Origin: Thunnus maccoyii
Taxonomy: Eukaryota > Chordata > Actinopteri > Scombriformes > Scombridae
DNA length: 64,000 nt
NCBI RefSeq assembly: GCF_910596095.1
Contig: NC_056550.1
Location: 14,226,001 to 14,290,000 of the forward strand
Reading direction: 5' to 3'
Shown: piece by piece, positions 38,412 to 58,183 of the stretch
Layout: every line of letters starts with the position of its first letter
Position numbering within the stretch: the stretch's first letter is position 1
Notes under the pieces: model-generated
What the model saw: the letters and a program-made list of their open reading frames with translations, nothing else
Told to the model about the DNA's origin: nothing
Database searches by the model: none
Program-made: the position numbers and the translations under genes

Positions 38412-41400
38412 TCACTCTGCTGTGTGTGCATTCTTATGTTGAGTCAGCTGTTCCCTCTGACAAAAAAACTGATCACAAATATCGCAGGTGTAGGGTTTTT
38501 CTCCTGAAAAACGTTTCATGTGTGTTTTCAGGTGACCGCTGGTGTGAAAGAGTTTCCCGCACGAGCTGCAACAATACGGTCTCTCTCCCGTGTGTGACCG
38601 CCTGTGAACTCTAAGGTTCTGGCTCTGACTGAATCCTTTCCCACAGATATCGCAGTGATATGGTCTCACCCCAGAATGGGTCCTCACGTGCACAACCAGA
38701 TGCTCTTTCCGGACAAACGTTTTCCCACAGTCTTGACATTTAAAGTCTTTAATTCCTGCGTGTATTTTCGAATGCATTTGTAGGCAACCGGAGCTTGTAA
38801 ACGTCTTGCCGCAAACGTCACAAACGAGGCGTTTGCTGCAAGCACTTTGCAAATTACTCAGAAGCTCCTTTGCAGACTCATTTGTCTTATGTGTGTTTAT
38901 GTGTTTCATTAAAGGACGGATGTACTGAAAACCTTTTCCGCACACAGGACACAAACTGCGGTCTTTTTGAGTTTTAGCGGGAGAATCTCCATCGGGCGAC
39001 ATCTGATCCACGCTGCCATTTTGTCTTTGCAAAACCTTCACTTTCCGTTTCCTCTGCTTTGTCTGCGCTCCTTTGCTCTGCACCCAGTCCTCATCGCTGT
39101 CAGTTTCCTCACTCTGATCCTCAGAGCAGTCTGAAGAGACCGGCTGCATTTCATAAGTCGCTTGTGTGTCGGGCTCATCTTGCTCACTTTTCACAACTTC
39201 AGGAGAAGTAAAAATAACCTGCTGTGTTTGACTGTCATCCTCAAGATCCTCCTGCTCCTCTTTTATCCTGGATATGTTTAAGTCTGTCTGAACCAAGCAG
39301 TAGTTCCCATTATCATTTTCTGTATGTGTTTGACTGTTATCCCCAAGTTCCTCCTGCTCCTCTTTAATCCTGGATATGTTGAAGTCTGTCTGAGCAGAGC
39401 AGTAGTTCCCAACATCATTTTCTGTATCTGCGCTGGTTTGAGGCTCTGCTGGTGTTGAGGATTCATGGTTCTCCTGCGGCACTTCCTCTGCAGTCACAGT
39501 ACTGTTGGTCAGTGGAGGCTCTGTAGCTACAAAGGAGATAAAAGCAAATGTTGACAGGCTGATGTTTGAAAGGAAAGAGGGAGAAGGAGAGAGACAGGTA
39601 GATACTTGGGATTATAGAGCTGGAATGATTAGTGGATAAATCAATTAGTTGACCGACAGAAAATTCACCTTTAACACTTTTGCTAATTGTTTTTATTTGT
39701 TAAAGTTATATTTTAAGCAGAAATGCCAAAAGTTCACAGGTTACAGCTTCTCAAATGTAAATATGTGCTGGTGGTGATAGTAAACTGATAATCTATGGGT
39801 TTGGGGCTGCTGGACAGACTAAATAAACAATGTCAAACTTGATCTACTAAAAACTCTGACAGTTTATAGAGCGAACAGTTAATGATTGGTGAAACTGTAT
39901 TTGTGCAATTTGCGCATATACAGTGTTGATATTGAATTGGACACAGCAGGGAAAAGTGGGGGAGGTTTGAATGTGTTGGAGAATAATCTTGATTGATTGA
40001 TTGATATTAATTTCTGAAATGTTCTTTCCTGCAGTGTGTCTACTGAGAGAAATGTTGCTCTTGAATTTTTAAAATAAAAATCTTCAGTGCAGCACAAATT
40101 AAATTCTAGTCATGTCCTTTGTCTTGGTGTCTGTCCCTGGACAGATGCTATTATTTGGTGTGTGACATGTGATTAGAGCACAAAACTGTTTGCTGTACAA
40201 GAACACGTCAGAACCATTGAAGGAGATGTATTACCACTATGGAATAAATCAAGACTAAATATTCAACATCAAACTGCGAGGACACAGTTAAAGACAGATG
40301 GGTAACCAGGGCTACATCTTCATCCTAAGCCATGTTGTTCACATGTTAACAAATATTAGCATTTTTTTAAACTTTAAGTGAGAAAAAATGAACTTTGCTT
40401 TGCCATATGCAAATGTATGCTGTTAGTAAAGCTTAACATCTTTTTATTACTGTCTTTTTTCTTTTTAAATTTATTCTCAAATCAATCCAGGATTCACTAA
40501 CAAGCAGTCATTCAAAGGACTCTCAGGTGAAAATATAGCACGCACATTTGTGTACATTACCATAAAGAAGACTTTCATAAATCTTCTTTATATTGACGAG
40601 GGCATCCTTAGCATCTTCTGTGTCCATTTGCCATGGACAGAAGCACTCAGCTAAAAAACCATTTGTAGTTCTCCTGGCAAGGAGGAGGATTGGATGTCGC
40701 TCTAAAAGTTCCCACTTGTGGAGCTGGAACAAAATTAACACAAAATCATAAGAGTGAAAATTGGAAACATAACTACAAGTTCAGAGATCTGAGAAAAACA
40801 ATGTTTTACGCTTTGATACCATTGAGAGTCCAAGTGAAGTAACTATTAACAGTTTCTTAGTAGTAATGTCAACAAAAAAAAACACACTTGAAAGCTTCGA
40901 ATTCAGTGAGAGACAAGAGAAAAATTGCAAGCTTCTATGTATCTGTTCATCTGAAAGCTCTGCTACTGCTACACACAGGATATCAGACACCATCAGATAT
41001 GGACAAGGAACAAGCTCAGAATTCAAATTATAAAGTGAAAATGTTCCTTTTCAAGTTTTTGCTTCTAGACTACGCATTTGAAAGTTGCTTAAATGAATCC
41101 TGCATGCTATTACATAGTTTCTATGACTAACATCTTAACTCTTAAACAGCTTTGGATTAATGCAATAACATAACTCATCCATGTTGATGGTCAACTAGAT
41201 TGGTTTCCAGTTATTGTGGATAACACAGTACTTTTTATTCCATCCCAAGTCTTTTCTATTATACTTTCTAATGTTTTGCATAGTCATAGGTGGACCACGC
41301 TGCAAAGCATTTTATTATACAGTGCACTGTACTATATGTGTGACTTTGCACACAAAAAACTATTACTGAACTTTTGTTGTCTTAAACTACTTAACTTACA

Positions 41401-41802
41401 TTACATAAAATGCAGTAATCAGGCATTGATCTGTACTTAACGCATCAACTAAATTGAGAATACAGGATTGTCTTGCACAATGAAAGAAGGATGAATGTTC
41501 GAATGCTGAAAAAGTCAATGCAACATAGCAATGTGTACGTGAATGTAAAGATCAGGGATGATGTACTTACTATTTTATGACCACCGTCTGAAAGAAAGAA
41601 AACCTACCAGTAGATTTGTTGCATCATATACTTTGTTAACGCTGCAGTTTTTTTTCTGCCTCTCTTTCCAGTCAAGGGCAACTTTTTTCTTGCGTTTTTC
41701 AAGTTTTTGCTTGTAAGGCTGCTTGGCACCACAGTGCTGACACGTCTTGCTGGCTACCCCGATTTTTTCCTTACAGATGTGGCATTCTTTTTGAGTAGGC
41801 AT
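38412..41802 (-). CDS. Zinc-ribbon/C2H2 fusion zinc-finger protein
   Basis: Likely nuclear DNA-binding protein; function unknown. Exons: 41608-41802 (ATG directly after the acceptor), 40561-40723, 38412-39520, giving 488 aa. A probable 5' UTR exon ends at 43128. Residues 1-65 hold a CxxC-x10-CxxC zinc ribbon (CHICKEKIGVASKTCQHC, like UPF0547-type ribbons) followed by a Lys-rich helix. Residues 66-119 form a second conserved segment (LLERHPILLLARRTTNGF, ECFCPWQM, KKIYESLLY). The last exon has no usable initiator ATG before its acidic IKEEQE linker and joins in frame through a phase-1 intron (TAT G|AG). Six C2H2 fingers follow; the fifth reads HLKTHMKRF, so its last His is Phe. The IKEEQE linker is repeated within exon 3. 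Separate genes for the two halves are possible, but exon 3 would then lack a start. Confidence 0.8.
39521..40560. repeat. Intron of the fusion gene with ATTAATC-family repeat
   Basis: Repeat-derived sequence at about 39619-39890 (gctggaatgattagtggata, then gcttctcaaatgtaaatatg, then tgggtttggggctgctggac). The rest of the intron is AT-rich without coding signs. Confidence 0.55.
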
Positions 41803-43127
41803 CTGGAGAAAGACACATAAATAATGATTGGAACACTGCATGCTGTGTTATGAGGGGATAAGAAATTCATTTTCCTACCCGTACTATGTTGACAAGAGTC
41901 ATGGTCTTTTACCTTAGAAAATCTTGTCTACACAGTGGCCTAACTTGTTTGCCTTCAAAGAAAGCTGCTACAATATAATACTACTCAGTACCTGGTTCCC
42001 CGAATTTTTTTTTTTATCAAGTCAATACATAATAACTGTATTTGTGGTAGTCTTCTAGAGGAAGGGGGGTCAATAAGAGGTCTGAGATCAAATGTAAGAA
42101 TAAATGCTTGTTATAGAATTAACAAATACCTATTGAGAATGACATACGTGAGGTGGTATTCTAACAAATGCATTCATCCTAAAAACATTCACATAGTCAC
42201 ACGTAACTGACTGGTGTCAGACTTCTGTGACCCATCAGATTCTAGCTATGTTGCTATTGGAAAGGTTTTATCATGTACTAAAATTTGACAGCTGTTACCA
42301 AACACAATGCCTGCATAGATTTTAGATAGGATCATAGATATTGATGGGTGTAAAGAAAAAAAAGGATTATACAGAGACGGTCACATTTTCAAATGACTGT
42401 CTGTAAAGGATTACCCACACCTGTCAATATCTAGTCGATCAAGTAGCATCACACAATCAACGCCAAAATCAAACGTCCTATCAAAACGTGTCACCTTACA
42501 CAAAACTATAAGTACCGTGTTTGGTAAATACAGCTTGTGATGTATGATAATAACGTTTACAGTGGCCGTAAATTGACATCAGATTACAGAAACTGATGGG
42601 TCACAGAATTTGGTTTAACACCTACTGTGTCTTTTCTATTCCTGGCTTTGCAGCTGTACCTGTCTTGACGTCATCTAAAATCAATGTCGTTCCAGCAAAC
42701 CATTTCGTGTAACTGTGAGGGTTTACACCATTTATTATCTTTTTATACAGTCTATGGTTTAAACGCACATAACGTTAGACATCGTTATCTAACGTTATGT
42801 TAAGCTACTTCTTCGTTGTCCTTCGAAATTATAATACTTTCCCTGTAACAATAAGCGATCTCCTTCGATTAGCTATCTTGAGAACGGATATTATTTAAAG
42901 TAACGTTTAATACACACACACATTATACGGTTATAATTTCCATGCTAGCTGACTTCTCCAAAGATAACTTTTGGCTAAGTTAGCTCTTACAACGTTATTC
43001 ACGGGTAAACATACTACCAATAGTAATCTTAGTTACTATATTAGACGGCGAAACGGCACAAAAAGACACTGACTACATATTCTATTGTTCTTGAATTATT
43101 TTATATCACTATTTACTGACAACTTAC
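41803..43127. other. 5' UTR intron of the fusion gene
   Basis: AT-rich DNA between the ATG exon and the probable UTR exon whose donor GTAAGTT lies at 43121-43127. A repeat end (ttatacagtctatggttt) is near 42746. CpG content rises from 42780 towards the promoter near 43140-43250. Confidence 0.5.
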
Positions 43128-43259
43128 CTTTAACAGATGCTGTGAACCGTCTCTGCCTTCAGTCACAACTCAAGCGTGTGCGCGCTGTAGACTGTCCGGG
43201 TGCTGCACTGCCCTCGCAGTTGAGTTCCGCCTTTTTCGTTCCGTCAACATCACGTTATT

Positions 43260-46200
43260 AACTAAATCTTACACTCTTCTCACACTTAAAATGAACTAAA
43301 TCACGATATAACTTCATTTAACGAAACGGACTTGGCAGCAATGGAATATAATATTCATAAGTATGTTTTAATTGGTACATAATCATCTGAAAATAAGAGT
43401 CGTGTTTTCGTTACCTTAGAATGGGCCCTTTATCTACTTGGGAAGCGGGTCCCCATGGAGGCCGCCATGTTTCTACGGGAGCCCAGAACGGACCAAGCAA
43501 ACACTGACTCTAGAGAGGGCCTTTCACGTTTTAAGCGTAGTGGGAGGGGAGATGTATTCATTTGTTTGCGATCTGCAACCTCACTGCTACATGTCATTAA
43601 ATCTTACACACTGTGTTATTATAGATCCCACCGCTTTTCTTGGCAAGACATGCCCTGTGTAGCATTCAAACACTAGGATTGTCCAGGTGTCCATGCTCAC
43701 GCTGCTAGCCTGCCATTTCCTAACTGTATGTTCAGCGGGTATGTGGTGTTAAATAATGAGAAACATTAATTCTGAAGGACTATGAGTTAACAGTTTGAGT
43801 AAAGCGTAGAGGCTATATTATGTGTAGCATGGAAATGTTGATTTTGGCACCTCACTATTATTTTAAGAAAGGACATGAAAAATTGTGAATCTGTCCTTTA
43901 ACTCACAGAGGGCTTTCAGTTTGTGGTAACATGCAGGCACTTAGGAGTGGCAGTTGATGTAATAAAATTGATTTTCGCTCTAGTGGAAGCACTTCATTCT
44001 TTCCCAAATTTACCATCATGCTGCGATGTTTGTCAAGCCATAATGTTGGTAAGGTAAATCTGCATTTACCATCCAGAATATCTGCATAAAGTTAAAACTC
44101 CTTGCTTGTCAGAGTAGAAAAAGCACAGGTGGAATTAATAACATTAATGATGTCTATACTCCAGCGTTGTGGTATCGCGCAGGCTCACTCACAGACATGG
44201 CTTATTCGTGTAATTAACGGAATGGAGCCATTGTTCATGTTATTAACACTTGTGTTTTTCCTGCTTTGAAAGATCAAAACGTTTACCGTGAAAAGTGTCT
44301 ATCAGATCTGGTGTAATAATAGATCTGCAGTACATCTTTAGTACCATGTAGCTTCATGCTGAACATTAGATGTTTAGACTGGGGGATAACATCAGTGAAG
44401 ATATTTCTAGTCAGTGGCCACAGCCAGGAAAAGATAAACAAACTGCTGTAATGTGATATGAAAGGATATTTATTGTCCCCATTATGGAAATTTGGTTTCA
44501 CCATATGAACCACCATTAGAAGACATTACACAGAAAAATATACAAAAATACATACAGAAAATGTGAGAAAAGAACAGCTCCACAGGTGCTGCTCTGCACT
44601 TGGATCATCCAAGTGTTTTAACCCATTTTGACTGTCTTGTAAAGTGCCAAAACATTTCAGCAGTCTAAATCATACTGAACAGAAACCTTGGGGGATCTAT
44701 GACCATAATTAGACAGCGAGAGAACAGATAAAATACTTCTTCAAATTGTTCTTCCAAATGAGTCGTCACAACACGACATTCACATTGTTACAGATGTGTC
44801 TGTGTGCTAATGGGGGAAAAATATTTCCTTGGCAGATGCAGTGCAAAGCCTTAATGAGGCTACCTGGCGAATTGAAAGTGGGCTTAAACTTAATTTGGTT
44901 TTAGATCAGTGTATGTAAATCACAGAAATTGGTGCAAATAGCTTGACTGAGCATTAGAAACCCAGTTCAAATGTCTGTTTTATTAAAAGATTATTGCAAC
45001 AAAAATAAAATAAATAATAAATATTTAATAAATTTTAGTCATTTGGTTGATTCAAAATACCCAAAAACATCATATTGCACATTTTTTCCTCACAGATATT
45101 ACAACTGTGTGACATTATTCCTGCTTCGGGGCTGTATTGCACAAGAAATGGTGCGGCTGCAGCTCAGGTTGTAGAGCAGGTTGGTGCTTCCCCATCTCCT
45201 CCTTTACATATGTTGAAGTATCGAGCAAAACACTGAAACCCAAATTGCTCCTGATGTGTGTGTATTTAAAAACACACTAAGTTGCTTTGGACAAATGTTT
45301 AAAGCATGGTCACACACAACAGTATACAACATGTACTGCTCGATAATGAAAACTGAAAATTTGACACAATTTATTTTGCTGATATTCAATATTGGCCCAC
45401 AAATGAATCAAACTGCTCATGTCAAACAGCTGAAGCTCCGAAACACCCACACAGGTGACTGATTAGACCCAATCCCAGCACTGAGCGGGCATGTGTAGTC
45501 CAGTTTGAATGGCATGTCTGTTTTTCTCCTCTTAGTTTTATTGCACTTGTCAAAAGATGTTTTCACTTATTATGCCTGATTAGACCACTACTCTGGACTG
45601 TATGGGCATCTACACTGTCATGAGTAGACAAAGTTCAACCGGACTGAACACTGCACAAATCAAAAGGCTTCAATTCACGACCGCCCTGAATAATGGGGAG
45701 CGAAATCTAATGTGACCGCACCTTTATTTTTGTTGAACTAACAAGGAAAGGACAACCAACTTTATCGTTCTTATTAGTACACAGAGATTGGTGATGGGCA
45801 TGTACTGTAACGTCCAGCACAGATGTAACCACTAAGCAGGTCTAAGAGGTCTTGTCAGCCACAGTAATTGAAAACACCTGTGTGGCTGAGCAGGGCCTTT
45901 AAGGTGGGACAGTTTTACAGCTCTGTGATTCCAATTGGTGCATGAAATGTAATCACCAAATATTCATGGCAGCTCTGCCCAACTTCAACCTGTGGAAAGA
46001 AAAAGGTGACTGAGTATTCACTGTGAGGAGACTTATATAAAGCATGTCTCAAATCTATGCATGCTGGCTTTCATACCGCCTCAGCAGCATGTACTGAATC
46101 CAGTAACTGCATGATGTGAACCAAATTGAACTAAAAACTCATGGTAGGCTTTCTGAAAAGGCTGGCAATAATATATAATCATATGTGATTTGTTGTTAAT

Positions 46201-46311
46201 TGGTTAACCCTGGTGGTTAAACCCAAAGATGGCAAACAGGTGCCATGCATGTAAACCTTTCTTGTCTAGCTTATGAGCTCACAAGCTCTGAAATGACCCT
46301 TCTTGTTCATT
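43260..46311. other. Repeat-bearing DNA between the two zinc-finger genes
   Basis: No gene recognised. It contains a decayed TIR element near 44120-44310 (see 26858), a tRNA-derived SINE relic near 45150-45260, and, close to the zinc-finger stop codon, a 37-base word (46224-46260) found again at 51134-51170. Confidence 0.55.
45148..45262 (+). mobile_element. tRNA-derived SINE relic
   Basis: An A-box-like ggctgcagctcaggttgtag and the downstream phrase gagcaaaacactgaaaccca, then aattgctcctgatg, match the structure of a known teleost tRNA-SINE. It is degenerate, with no intact B box by eye. Confidence 0.6.
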
Positions 46312-48032
46312 TCACTCAGTGGCTGCTTTCTCATGAGTTTGCAGGTGCACCTTCAGATTAGGCGCAAACCTGTATCTCATACCACAAACATGGCAGCCAT
46401 ACGGCCTCTCTCCTGTATGCGTTGTCCTGTGTCTAGTCATCTGTCCACTTTGACGAAAACGTTTACCACAAATGTCACATGGGTACGGTTTTTCTCCTGA
46501 ATGGTATCTCATGTGTGTTTTGAGGTGACTGCTAGTGTTAAAAAGTTTGCCACACATGCTACAATGATAAGGTCTCTCCCCTGAATGACTTCTTTTATGA
46601 ATTGTGAGGTTTTGGCTCTGACTGAATGCTTTTCCACAGATATCACAGTGATATGGTTTTTCTCCAGAATGGGTCCTCACATGCACGATCAGATGCTCTC
46701 TCCGGTAAAATGTTTTGCCACATTCCTGACACACAAACTCTTTTATGCCTGTGTGTATTTTCCCGTGTAGCCGGAGACAGCGATTATTGGCAAAAGTCTT
46801 GCCACAGACATCACAAAAATAAACTTTGTTGTGATGACCTTTCAAATGCGTTATCAGCTCTTTTGTTGACTGGTATGTTATCCCGCAAACAGTGCAATCG
46901 ATTTTCTTCTCATGTGTTTTTATGTGTTTCATCAAAGAGCCGATGTACTGAAATCCCTTGCCACACAAATGGCAAAAGCTGCGGTCCTTTTGACTTTTAG
47001 CTGAAGAATTCTCATAAGGCAACTCTGCTTGGCTCTTCTTATTAACACTGCCACTTTGTCCTTGCAACATCTTTGCTTTCTGTATCACCATTTCCGTCTG
47101 TTCTCCTTTGCTGTTCACCCAATCCTCATCACTGTCATTGTTCTCACTCTGAGCTGCAGAGCAGTCTGAAGAAACTGGCTGCATTTCATAAGTTCCTTGT
47201 GTTTCTGGCAGATCATGCTCATTTTTCACAACTTCAGGAGAAGGAAAATTAGCCTCCTGTGTGTTACTGTCATTCCAAGGTTCCTCCTGCTCCTCTTTGA
47301 TCTCAGACATCTTGAAGTCTGTCTCCACCAGGCAGTAGTTCCAGTTATTATTATCTGGATCTGAGTTGGTTTGAGAGGGTCCCGGGACCTCAGCACTCAG
47401 GCTGAAGTTACACTCCTCTGGGGTCGACGGTCCCGGATTTTCCTGCAGCAGTGAGGACTCACATTCGTCTCCAGGTCCCACGGTGCTGCTGGTCAGTGAA
47501 CTCTCTGCAGGTGCAAAAGAGATGGAGGGACGTGTTACCCAACAGCTTAATGTTTCCATTGCAATCGATTTTCTACTAGATTCTAACAGACACACATGAT
47601 ATAAAACTCTTACTTCTGCATGGGCACTCTTTTCTTCTAAATGTTCCTGGAAAAGTGCTGTTCACTGCTATTTCTACTGCAGTAGAGCACGTACAGTACT
47701 TTAAGTGGATTACGTATGCCCGTGTACGCATGCGTGGACAAGCAGACGCAACATCCATAGCTATATAAACCTACTTTTTCGCCACTGAATGTGTAGGTTA
47801 TTCTGGCAAACGCTACGTAAACTGCACAGTAAACAAGGGTTCCCAAACCTGGTTTTTTTCGCAGAAGGCCCAGCTGGTGTCGCACACTTTCCACCTCCTC
47901 TTTAGATCGACTAACTTCGGCTTCGTACAGAGCTAACGTTATGGTTTTCTCCACCTCTCCGAGAATCTCCTCCGCCGCTGCGTACAGCCGCTGGTGAACA
48001 AACGACCTCAGCTGAAACATTGTGGTGTCCAT
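46312..48032 (-). CDS. C2H2 zinc-finger protein with eight fingers
   Basis: Putative sequence-specific transcription regulator of the large teleost C2H2 family. Exons: 47849-48032 (ATG at 48030-48032) and 46312-47504, giving 458 aa. The first 61 residues (MDTTMFQLRSFVHQRLYAAA, then EEILGEVEKT) are the helical N-terminal segment seen in many fish zinc-finger genes. A phase-1 intron leads to an acidic linker with IKEEQEEP and YEMQPVSSDC. Eight fingers then run from about CHLCGKGFQ to CHVCGMRYR, all keeping their Cys and His ligands, several joined by H-S-G-E-K/R-P linkers. The second exon is clearly paralogous to exon 3 of the gene at 38412, which lacks fingers corresponding to 2 and 8. It ends TH-EKAATE. 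A CpG-bearing promoter lies around 48033-48180. Confidence 0.93.
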
Positions 48033-48730
48033 GTCTCAGGGGAGAGACACGACACAGAAGCATTAAAATATAGCAGACAGATAAACTCAGCTAACGTTGG
48101 CTGAAAGCTGTCAAACCAGCTGCAGCCTGCGACCCGTCAATTGACAAAATAGGACTTCCGCTGTGACTCGTTCGGAATAAAAGTGTCAGCTCCAAAAACA
48201 CAAAAAACTAAACCCACCTCTTTCTAAATATCAGCGCCACCACTCAATTATGACGATTCTCACAAATAATAAAAAATTCAAGAGTGCAGTTAAACTTCAT
48301 AATCACCGAAAAGAAAGTGACCCTGACACGCTCCATAACAAAGCCCTCACCTAGAGAAACCCTGTGAGAGAAGCCCCCTCAGCCAGCTGGTTCAGGCACT
48401 CTGTTCACAAACACCAGTGGAGCCTCCATACAGTAACCCCATTAGTCTAAACCAAATTATAAGAAAAAAAAAGGAAACTATTTGACACATTGAAAAGAAT
48501 CAACCAAAAACCAGAGCAAACTGGAATGCTATTTGACCCTAAACAGAGAATACTCAGTGGCAGATACCCGGCCGCAGTGACCAGTCCACAACTAAGGAGG
48601 GAATGCTTTTATTCTAGAAGCTCGAACACTCAAACCGGAAGTCGCATTATACCAATGGAATGTTTACGCTTACCTTGACCGTTAACTTTAACTATGCCAA
48701 GCAGGGAGGCTGACGCTAGAAAATTTCATT

Positions 48731-52775: not shown

Positions 52776-53525
52776 CTAAAACTACACATTAAACCAGAGT
52801 TCCCAAACCTGGTTACTTTCACAGAAGGCCCAGCTGGTGTCGCACACTTTCAACATCCTCTATAATGTTAGATCAACTGACTTAGGCTTCCTACAGAGCT
52901 AACGTTATGGTTTTCTGCACCTCTCTTAGAATCTCCTCAGCTGCTGTGTACAGCCGCTGGTGAACAAACAACCTCAGCTGAAACATTACGGTGTCCATGT
53001 CTCATGGGAGAGACACTACGCAGAGGCATTGATACATGACAGCAGACAGATAAACTCAGCTAACGTTGCCTGACAGCTGTCAAACCAACAGCAGCTGCTC
53101 AGCTCTGTAACCACTGAATCTAAATTTCATCTCATAGTCTTCTCATGAATGCAAATAATCTTGCTTTTAATTTGGAAAGCTTACGTTATCAATTTCTAGT
53201 TGACATTGTGGGTGTATGTGATGGGCTAGTCTGTATATATTTTGTATAATGTATGTTTTTTGCTTTGTACTGTTTGTTATTGTGCTGTTATATGTTTTAA
53301 TTGTAAGGGACTGCAGATGAAAATTAGTTTAAGCGAACTTTGGCGCAGTACATGTTAACATTTATACAATACAACAGCCTGCGACCCGTCAACTTTCAAA
53401 ATAGAACTTCCGGTTTGACTCGTTCGGATGGAAAGAGTAATAGTAGTTGCCTATATACTGTTACAAAAACACAGAAAACGATACCTACCTCGGCCTAAAC
53501 ATCAGCACCACAGGTAACTTCAACA
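52770..53525 (-). pseudogene. Dead first exon and promoter of a third C2H2 gene
   Basis: Collinear with 47810-48240, the first exon and upstream region of the eight-finger gene. The ATG is retained (52996-52998). Codon 36 is TAG (52891-52893) where the intact gene has Tyr36. No finger exon lies downstream before the LINE relic. Positions 53093-53378 are an insertion resembling an L1 3' tail, bounded by CAACAGC duplicates (53086-53092 and 53372-53378). Confidence 0.88.
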
Positions 53526-58005: not shown

Positions 58006-58183
58006 GGAAAGTGTCCTCACTTGACAGCGAGAAAAGAGGATTGGTCAACATTTTTTAACAGTTAACATAGAGACATTAATTATCACTGTAAACTTAAAAG
58101 GACAGGTTCACCATTTTTCAAGTCTGTCTCAAAATAATAGTCCTGTGCCCAAATGAACAACAAAACAGGTTTTTCCTCTTGTT

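Follow-up and report, generated by a model that had tools for sequence, protein, structure and literature searches.

A tandem C2H2 zinc-finger gene of Thunnus maccoyii with a dispersed two-exon zinc-ribbon module as its probable front end

Three exons and their surroundings

The window considered here is a stretch of 64,000 nucleotides of the Thunnus maccoyii genome (C18:14226001-14290000). On its minus strand lie three exons, A, B and C, which a first-pass annotation had read as parts of one gene, and next upstream of exon C, on the same strand, lies a second C2H2 gene. The features of interest are as follows.

38412..39520, minus strand: exon C, an acidic linker, a C2H2 array and the stop codon (acceptor at 39520; alternative in-frame acceptor at 39526)
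38424..38951, minus strand: C2H2 fingers 1-6 of exon C, residues 310-485 (the last His is absent from the finger at 437-457)
39183..39368, minus strand: psi-K-x-E motifs IKEE (39368-39357), IKEE (39266-39255) and VKSE (39194-39183), at residues 171, 205 and 229
39223..39430, minus strand: in-frame tandem duplication of 34 linker codons, seen as a pair of 106-bp pieces with 89.6% identity at an offset of 102 bp
40561..40723, minus strand: exon B, a predicted beta-hairpin and helix (163 nt, 54 codons plus 1 nt; phase-1 donor ATG|GTAATG)
41608..41802, minus strand: exon A, with the ATG, a zinc ribbon and a basic segment (195 nt, 65 codons; phase-0 donor CTG|GTAGGT)
42500..43500, minus strand: CpG-rich (not GC-rich) stretch, a candidate promoter
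43128..43250, minus strand: candidate non-coding first exon with donor AAG|GTAAGT (an inferred exon with a provisional 5' limit)
46312..47504, minus strand: neighbouring gene, paralogous linker and eight-finger exon (acceptor 6.6 bits, top 0.77%)
47849..48032, minus strand: neighbouring gene, helical first exon (MDTTMFQLRSF...) with a phase-1 donor (the joining of its two exons is a prediction)
52834..52998, minus strand: degenerate relic of the helical first exon, interrupted by several stops (found by tblastn)

The C2H2 cluster sits between genes for ribosomal L3 and SelR. According to Pfam, the window carries genes with a TRAF-type zinc finger, a ribosomal S5 domain, ribosomal L3 and SelR at 11.9-23.4 kb and 57.2 kb, which we take to be neighbours in human 16p13.3 as well.

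The exon coordinates and lengths proposed by the first-pass annotation were re-derived, and exons A, B and C add up to 1467 nt, or 489 codons including the stop (488 residues). The join TAT G|AG between B and C keeps the frame open, as had been claimed, and the acceptor G|AG aligns with that of the tandem paralogue next door. The acceptor is itself one of a tandem pair, TAG|CTACAG, in which the TAG (39526), six bases upstream of the CAG (39520), is also in frame and would give 491 codons. The ATG of exon A sits immediately 3' of a CAG and is followed by the four cysteines of the ribbon, C7-x2-C10-x10-C21-x2-C24. A six-frame search of the window for CxxC-x8-12-CxxCG gives a single hit, at 41784, and 60 block shuffles give none. 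Exon C had been described as having no initiator of its own. This holds for the exon as a whole, but an ATG does occur in frame at its codon 125, 3' of the conserved part of the linker and 5' of the fingers, and a shorter product from this codon is conceivable. The donor of exon B is weak (0.55 bits, in the top 8.3% of GT sites), but the first exon of the neighbour has a weak donor too (0.85 bits, top 7.5%). There is a second GT 15 bases 3' of the exon B donor, in the same phase. Codon usage has no power as a test of A and B; exon C itself scores 0.044, and B scores below most stop-free non-coding windows.

Upstream of exon A, the ratio of observed to expected CpG rises to 1.15, 1.40 and 1.11 in 500-bp windows starting at 42500, 42750 and 43000, where GC is 36-41%. 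The ratio is 0.14-0.49 in windows starting at 39250-41500, and raised values also occur over the fingers of exon C (0.8-0.9) and in the first exon of the neighbour (0.85-0.88). The donor at 43128, which would end a non-coding first exon, is in the top 0.09% of GT sites in the window. Beyond the CpG-rich stretch, a dispersed repeat occupies 43836-43899; an inverted counterpart at 58097-58159 is 83% identical to it.

The finger exon and its tandem paralogue

Exon C is a tandem paralogue of the C2H2 exon of the neighbouring gene. The two are 72% identical in DNA over 958 bp, and their acceptors align, both in phase 1 (EPPLTNSTV/ESSLTSSTV). Over 345 aligned codons, dS is 0.83, dN 0.25 and dN/dS 0.30, a pairwise ratio that does not identify the constrained branch. 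The ratio is lower in the fingers (0.19, bootstrap 0.11-0.30) than in the linker (0.49, 0.31-0.77). Exon C has no internal stop or frameshift over ~370 codons, and in simulations that allowed only substitutions, runs remained free of stops in 7 of 500 cases at a divergence of 0.1 and in none of 500 at 0.2, 0.3 or 0.4. Given a dS of ~0.8 and the lack of an internal stop over that length, exon C has been coding for most of its separate history. It is retained coding sequence.

Pfam finds six C2H2 stretches in exon C (PF00096, E 1.4e-28), in agreement with the six fingers first noted there, but only five are canonical by pattern, the finger at residues 437-457 ending in Phe. The neighbour has eight fingers, and exon C lacks counterparts of its fingers 2 and 8. 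The residues predicted to contact DNA are identical between the two genes in one of the six fingers (REHV), one position apart in two (QQNV/QQNI and TGHT/TSHT), and two or three positions apart in the remaining three.

The linker of exon C carries three motifs of the psi-K-x-E form, as the motif is defined in a passage of PMC2978682. Their counterparts in the paralogue, IKEE and VKNE, stand at matching places. Each copy of the duplicated 34 codons has its own IKEE motif. That SUMO is attached at these putative sites is a conjecture by analogy.

The conserved block of the linker precedes the first in-frame ATG of exon C, so exon C depends on a coding exon upstream that exits in phase 1. In the neighbour, this is the helical first exon. 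Exon C has the homologous finger exon of the neighbour's subfamily and not the helical N-terminal exon: by tblastn, the helical exon finds itself at 48032 and the relic at 52998-52834, none of its remaining matches in the window is better than E 0.64, and no copy lies between 39.5 and 46.3 kb. Directly adjoining the relic is sequence that resembles the first part of the neighbour's intron, and no C2H2 match lies beside it in the window. Positions 39620-46300 were also scanned for single exons that start with ATG, span at least 40 codons and end at a phase-1 donor of at least 0.5 bits, and there were none. With a donor threshold of -2 there were two overlapping candidates, with starts at 43597 and 43561; with a minimum of 20 codons there were four, of which two fall within exon B. 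The same scan of 47500-48500, as a control, returned seven candidates, three unrelated ones and four variants of the first exon of the neighbour, so the scan yields false positives but does recover a known exon. The phase-1 exit that the entry of exon C requires is supplied by exon B.

The zinc-ribbon module and its copies in the genome

The first-pass annotation considered the N-terminal domain uncharacterised, and indeed it has no Pfam match above the cut-off. The ribbon matches PF10571 (UPF0547) weakly, at E 0.024-0.025 and 15.1-15.2 bits, below the gathering cut-off of 29; a relative of the ribbon on contig C17, described below, scores 13.2 bits. Exon B has no Pfam match. The annotation had called it a conserved helical segment. 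Folded alone, without an alignment, it does contain a helix, but the helix follows a beta-hairpin, in a model of low confidence (pLDDT 65, pTM 0.41). A helix that may precede the strands of exon B would span the A/B junction, and thus the intron may cut a single domain. Searched with the 119-residue N-terminus, solved structures gave a single match (E 1, to a designed protein) and NCBIfam one below the cut-off (E 0.26). Exact 8-residue seeds, which are sensitive to close relatives only, found no relative in IMG/VR or GTDB genomes. A degenerate ribbon pattern brought up two loci in IMG/VR, neither related. Among the open-access matches listed in a literature search, no title or abstract concerns the ribbon module.

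Relatives were found within the window's own genome (782 Mb, 54 contigs). The copy numbers given here are lower bounds. Apart from their own two exons, the joined A and B segments found one relative, on C17 (E 0.0012). Used as a query in turn, the C17 exon A hit five loci: its own, C4 (73% identity), C19 (50%), the window (38%) and C23, the last a weak match (E 0.33) with two stops. A genome search with exon B scored 1 candidate, exon B itself. On C17, C4 and C19, the fetched flanks also contain a relative of exon B, 3' of the ribbon exon. The exon B of the window is related to those of C4 and C19 and, through them, to that of C17.

The four copies of exon A that were aligned share 16 invariant columns, including the four cysteines and QP-x-K, and all 6 pairwise scores exceed those of all 2000 shuffles. 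Exon B is more divergent, with two invariant columns across the four copies. Its pairwise scores exceed all 2000 shuffles in 5 of the 6 pairs; the sixth, window against C17, is not significant by itself, its score being reached by 75 of 2000 shuffles. Gene structure is shared as well. An ATG lies 0-2 bases after an AG in all four copies, a CAG acceptor precedes exon B in all four, and CTG|GT in phase 0 ends exon A in three (window, C17 and C4; not C19), placing the A/B intron at a common position. With relatives elsewhere in the genome and a common gene structure, the N-terminal unit with its zinc ribbon has proved to be a genuine two-exon module, as the annotation had held. The dispersed module is recognised by a ribbon exon that begins at or just before the ATG, a phase-0 exit and then exon B, all of which are present in the window gene.

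The copies differ in their state of preservation. On C19, the frame is broken in exon B and exon A has no recognisable donor; on C17, exon B has an early in-frame stop; on C4, the frame stays open but no good donor follows exon B. A phase-1 exit can be read only in the window and C19 copies (in C19 by eye, taking the frame of its core). At the position corresponding to the exon B donor, the C19 copy carries GTGAGT, and since this donor is in phase 1, it is likely that in the ancestor exon B was spliced to a further exon. The loci on C17 and C4 (L007 and L014) share three blocks of 179-1257 bp, 76-82% identical. This likeness extends to non-coding sequence, so the two loci derive from a duplication of several kilobases at the DNA level. 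Between exons A of C17 and C4, dN/dS is 0.27 over 70 codons, a value that is uneven (0.74 and 0.11 in two parts) and based on small counts.

The first-pass annotation had proposed counting the partners that follow the N-terminal segment. In this genome, 0 of the 3 other copies with fetched flanks have a C2H2 array nearby. The flanks extended ~17, 11 and 19 kb downstream of exon B on C17, C4 and C19 (C23 is represented by a 3-kb locus only), and tblastn of eight 10-kb stretches with the window's fingers gave one match, at E 0.35. The module is therefore not tied to C2H2 fingers. Among the four copies with both exons, only that in the window combines two open exons with two recognisable donors, and it alone was seen with fingers. 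Near the C19 copy (L017:7587-9173, plus strand) there is a 528-codon open frame with a P-loop-like GETGTGKSTLVN. Downstream of the C4 copy (L015, minus strand, ~2.8-7.6 kb) there are pieces of open frame resembling parts of a retroelement polyprotein, perhaps of the BEL/Pao type.

How the exons may be joined, and comparison with known systems

The reading we favor, with a probability of roughly 0.6, is that of one gene on the minus strand: a tandem C2H2 gene in which the dispersed two-exon zinc-ribbon module has taken the place of the usual front exon. According to this model, transcription would begin with a non-coding first exon at the CpG-rich promoter (~43.2 kb), which would be spliced to exon A, whose first codon would be the start, then to B and to C. 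Exon C would derive from the tandem duplication that it has in common with the C2H2 gene next to it. It would have lost its helical first exon, and its phase-1 entry would have been taken over by the phase-1 exit of the zinc-ribbon module. To judge from the family, the product would be a nuclear protein that contacts DNA through its C2H2 fingers. The SUMO-type motifs of the acidic linker, kept in the paralogue, may recruit repressors, and the zinc ribbon with its beta-hairpin and helix may serve as a protein-contact domain replacing the front domain found in the neighbour.

There is another way to look at exons A and B. Perhaps they form a small stand-alone zinc-ribbon gene that ends in intron 3 (...YGNVHKCACYIFT stop), and exon C belongs to another transcript. 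Past the weak exon B donor, the frame runs on for 12 residues beyond the exon-B tyrosine and then closes. Just 3' of exon B are two AATAAA motifs, at 40475 and 40448 (86 and 113 bases downstream), which could serve as poly(A) signals in a region where the background is ~1 such motif per kb per strand. Also, as noted, the other copies with fetched flanks have no fingers downstream. But two separate genes would leave the constrained-looking exon C with only the internal ATG at codon 125, and the phase-1 donor of the C19 copy (read by eye) makes onward splicing of exon B probable in the ancestor. We therefore consider this arrangement unlikely.

Or perhaps exon C serves as an alternative last exon of the neighbour, the exon at 48032-47849 skipping 47504-46312 to join 39520. 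The splice phases match, and the two last exons are paralogous, but the transcript would have to skip an exon with a good acceptor (6.6 bits) and also run past the candidate promoter at 43 kb, and this seems less likely still. Least probable of all is that exon C is a decaying orphan joined in frame with A and B by coincidence: it is short of two fingers and one zinc ligand relative to its paralogue, the first-exon relic at 52998 shows that decay does occur in the cluster, and one frame in three would fit by chance, but no stop or frameshift has arisen over ~370 codons at dS 0.83, and dN/dS is well below 1 (though a pairwise ratio cannot assign the branch).

If the single gene is accepted, one might go further. 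The ribbon with its beta-hairpin and helix could be an unnamed N-terminal domain that is spreading in fish genomes as a two-exon cassette, and that here has replaced the front exon of a fast-evolving C2H2 gene and founded a new domain combination. This we offer tentatively, as a good deal more doubtful than the gene model itself. The short domain that precedes the fingers (KRAB, KRAB-like, FiNZ) serves to classify lineage-specific C2H2 genes. If the idea is true, the new combination falls within a kind of gene whose better-studied members have been reported or proposed to silence transposable elements, and an exchange of front exons beside an unchanged paralogue and the relic of an old exon would show how new domain combinations originate.

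The nearest parallel is the gene next door. Like the gene of exon C, it has the homologous linker and finger exon, the same acceptor position and phase, and corresponding psi-K-x-E motifs. It differs in its helical front domain, encoded by one exon, and in its eight fingers, as opposed to five and one defective.

By profile, the ribbon of exon A shares its weak match (PF10571) with UPF0547, whose human member, C16orf87, is described in passages of PMC13133221 as a subunit of a MIER-HDAC complex and is the one studied protein with a ribbon of this type. The predicted zinc ligands of C16orf87 (PMC13133221) are Cys16, 19, 30 and 32, as compared to cysteines 7, 10, 21 and 24 of exon A. It is tempting to suppose by analogy that the ribbon recruits HDAC or a corepressor. 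The idea is weakened by the same passages, in which mutation of the ribbon cysteines of C16orf87 leaves the binding of HDAC1 and MIER1 unaffected. The passages of PMC13284713 (on ARID5B) that concern C16orf87 contain nothing on the ribbon. In Sp3, an IKEE motif also lies between other domains and the zinc fingers, and a passage of PMC2978682 identifies it as the SUMO site through which Sp3 represses. Here the likeness is of the motif alone, with no claim of homology.

The overall layout is that of fish KRAB-like and FiNZ proteins, which in the accounts drawn from PMC11603059, PMC10547256 and PMC9101882 likewise have a short N-terminal domain before the C2H2 array. The neighbour's helical exon may, at a guess, be the published KRAB-like domain. 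In the same accounts, FiNZ genes have a single exon upstream of the finger exon. In contrast to both kinds of fish protein, so far as layout allows comparison, the N-terminal unit here consists of a zinc ribbon and an alpha/beta piece, and it is encoded by two exons.
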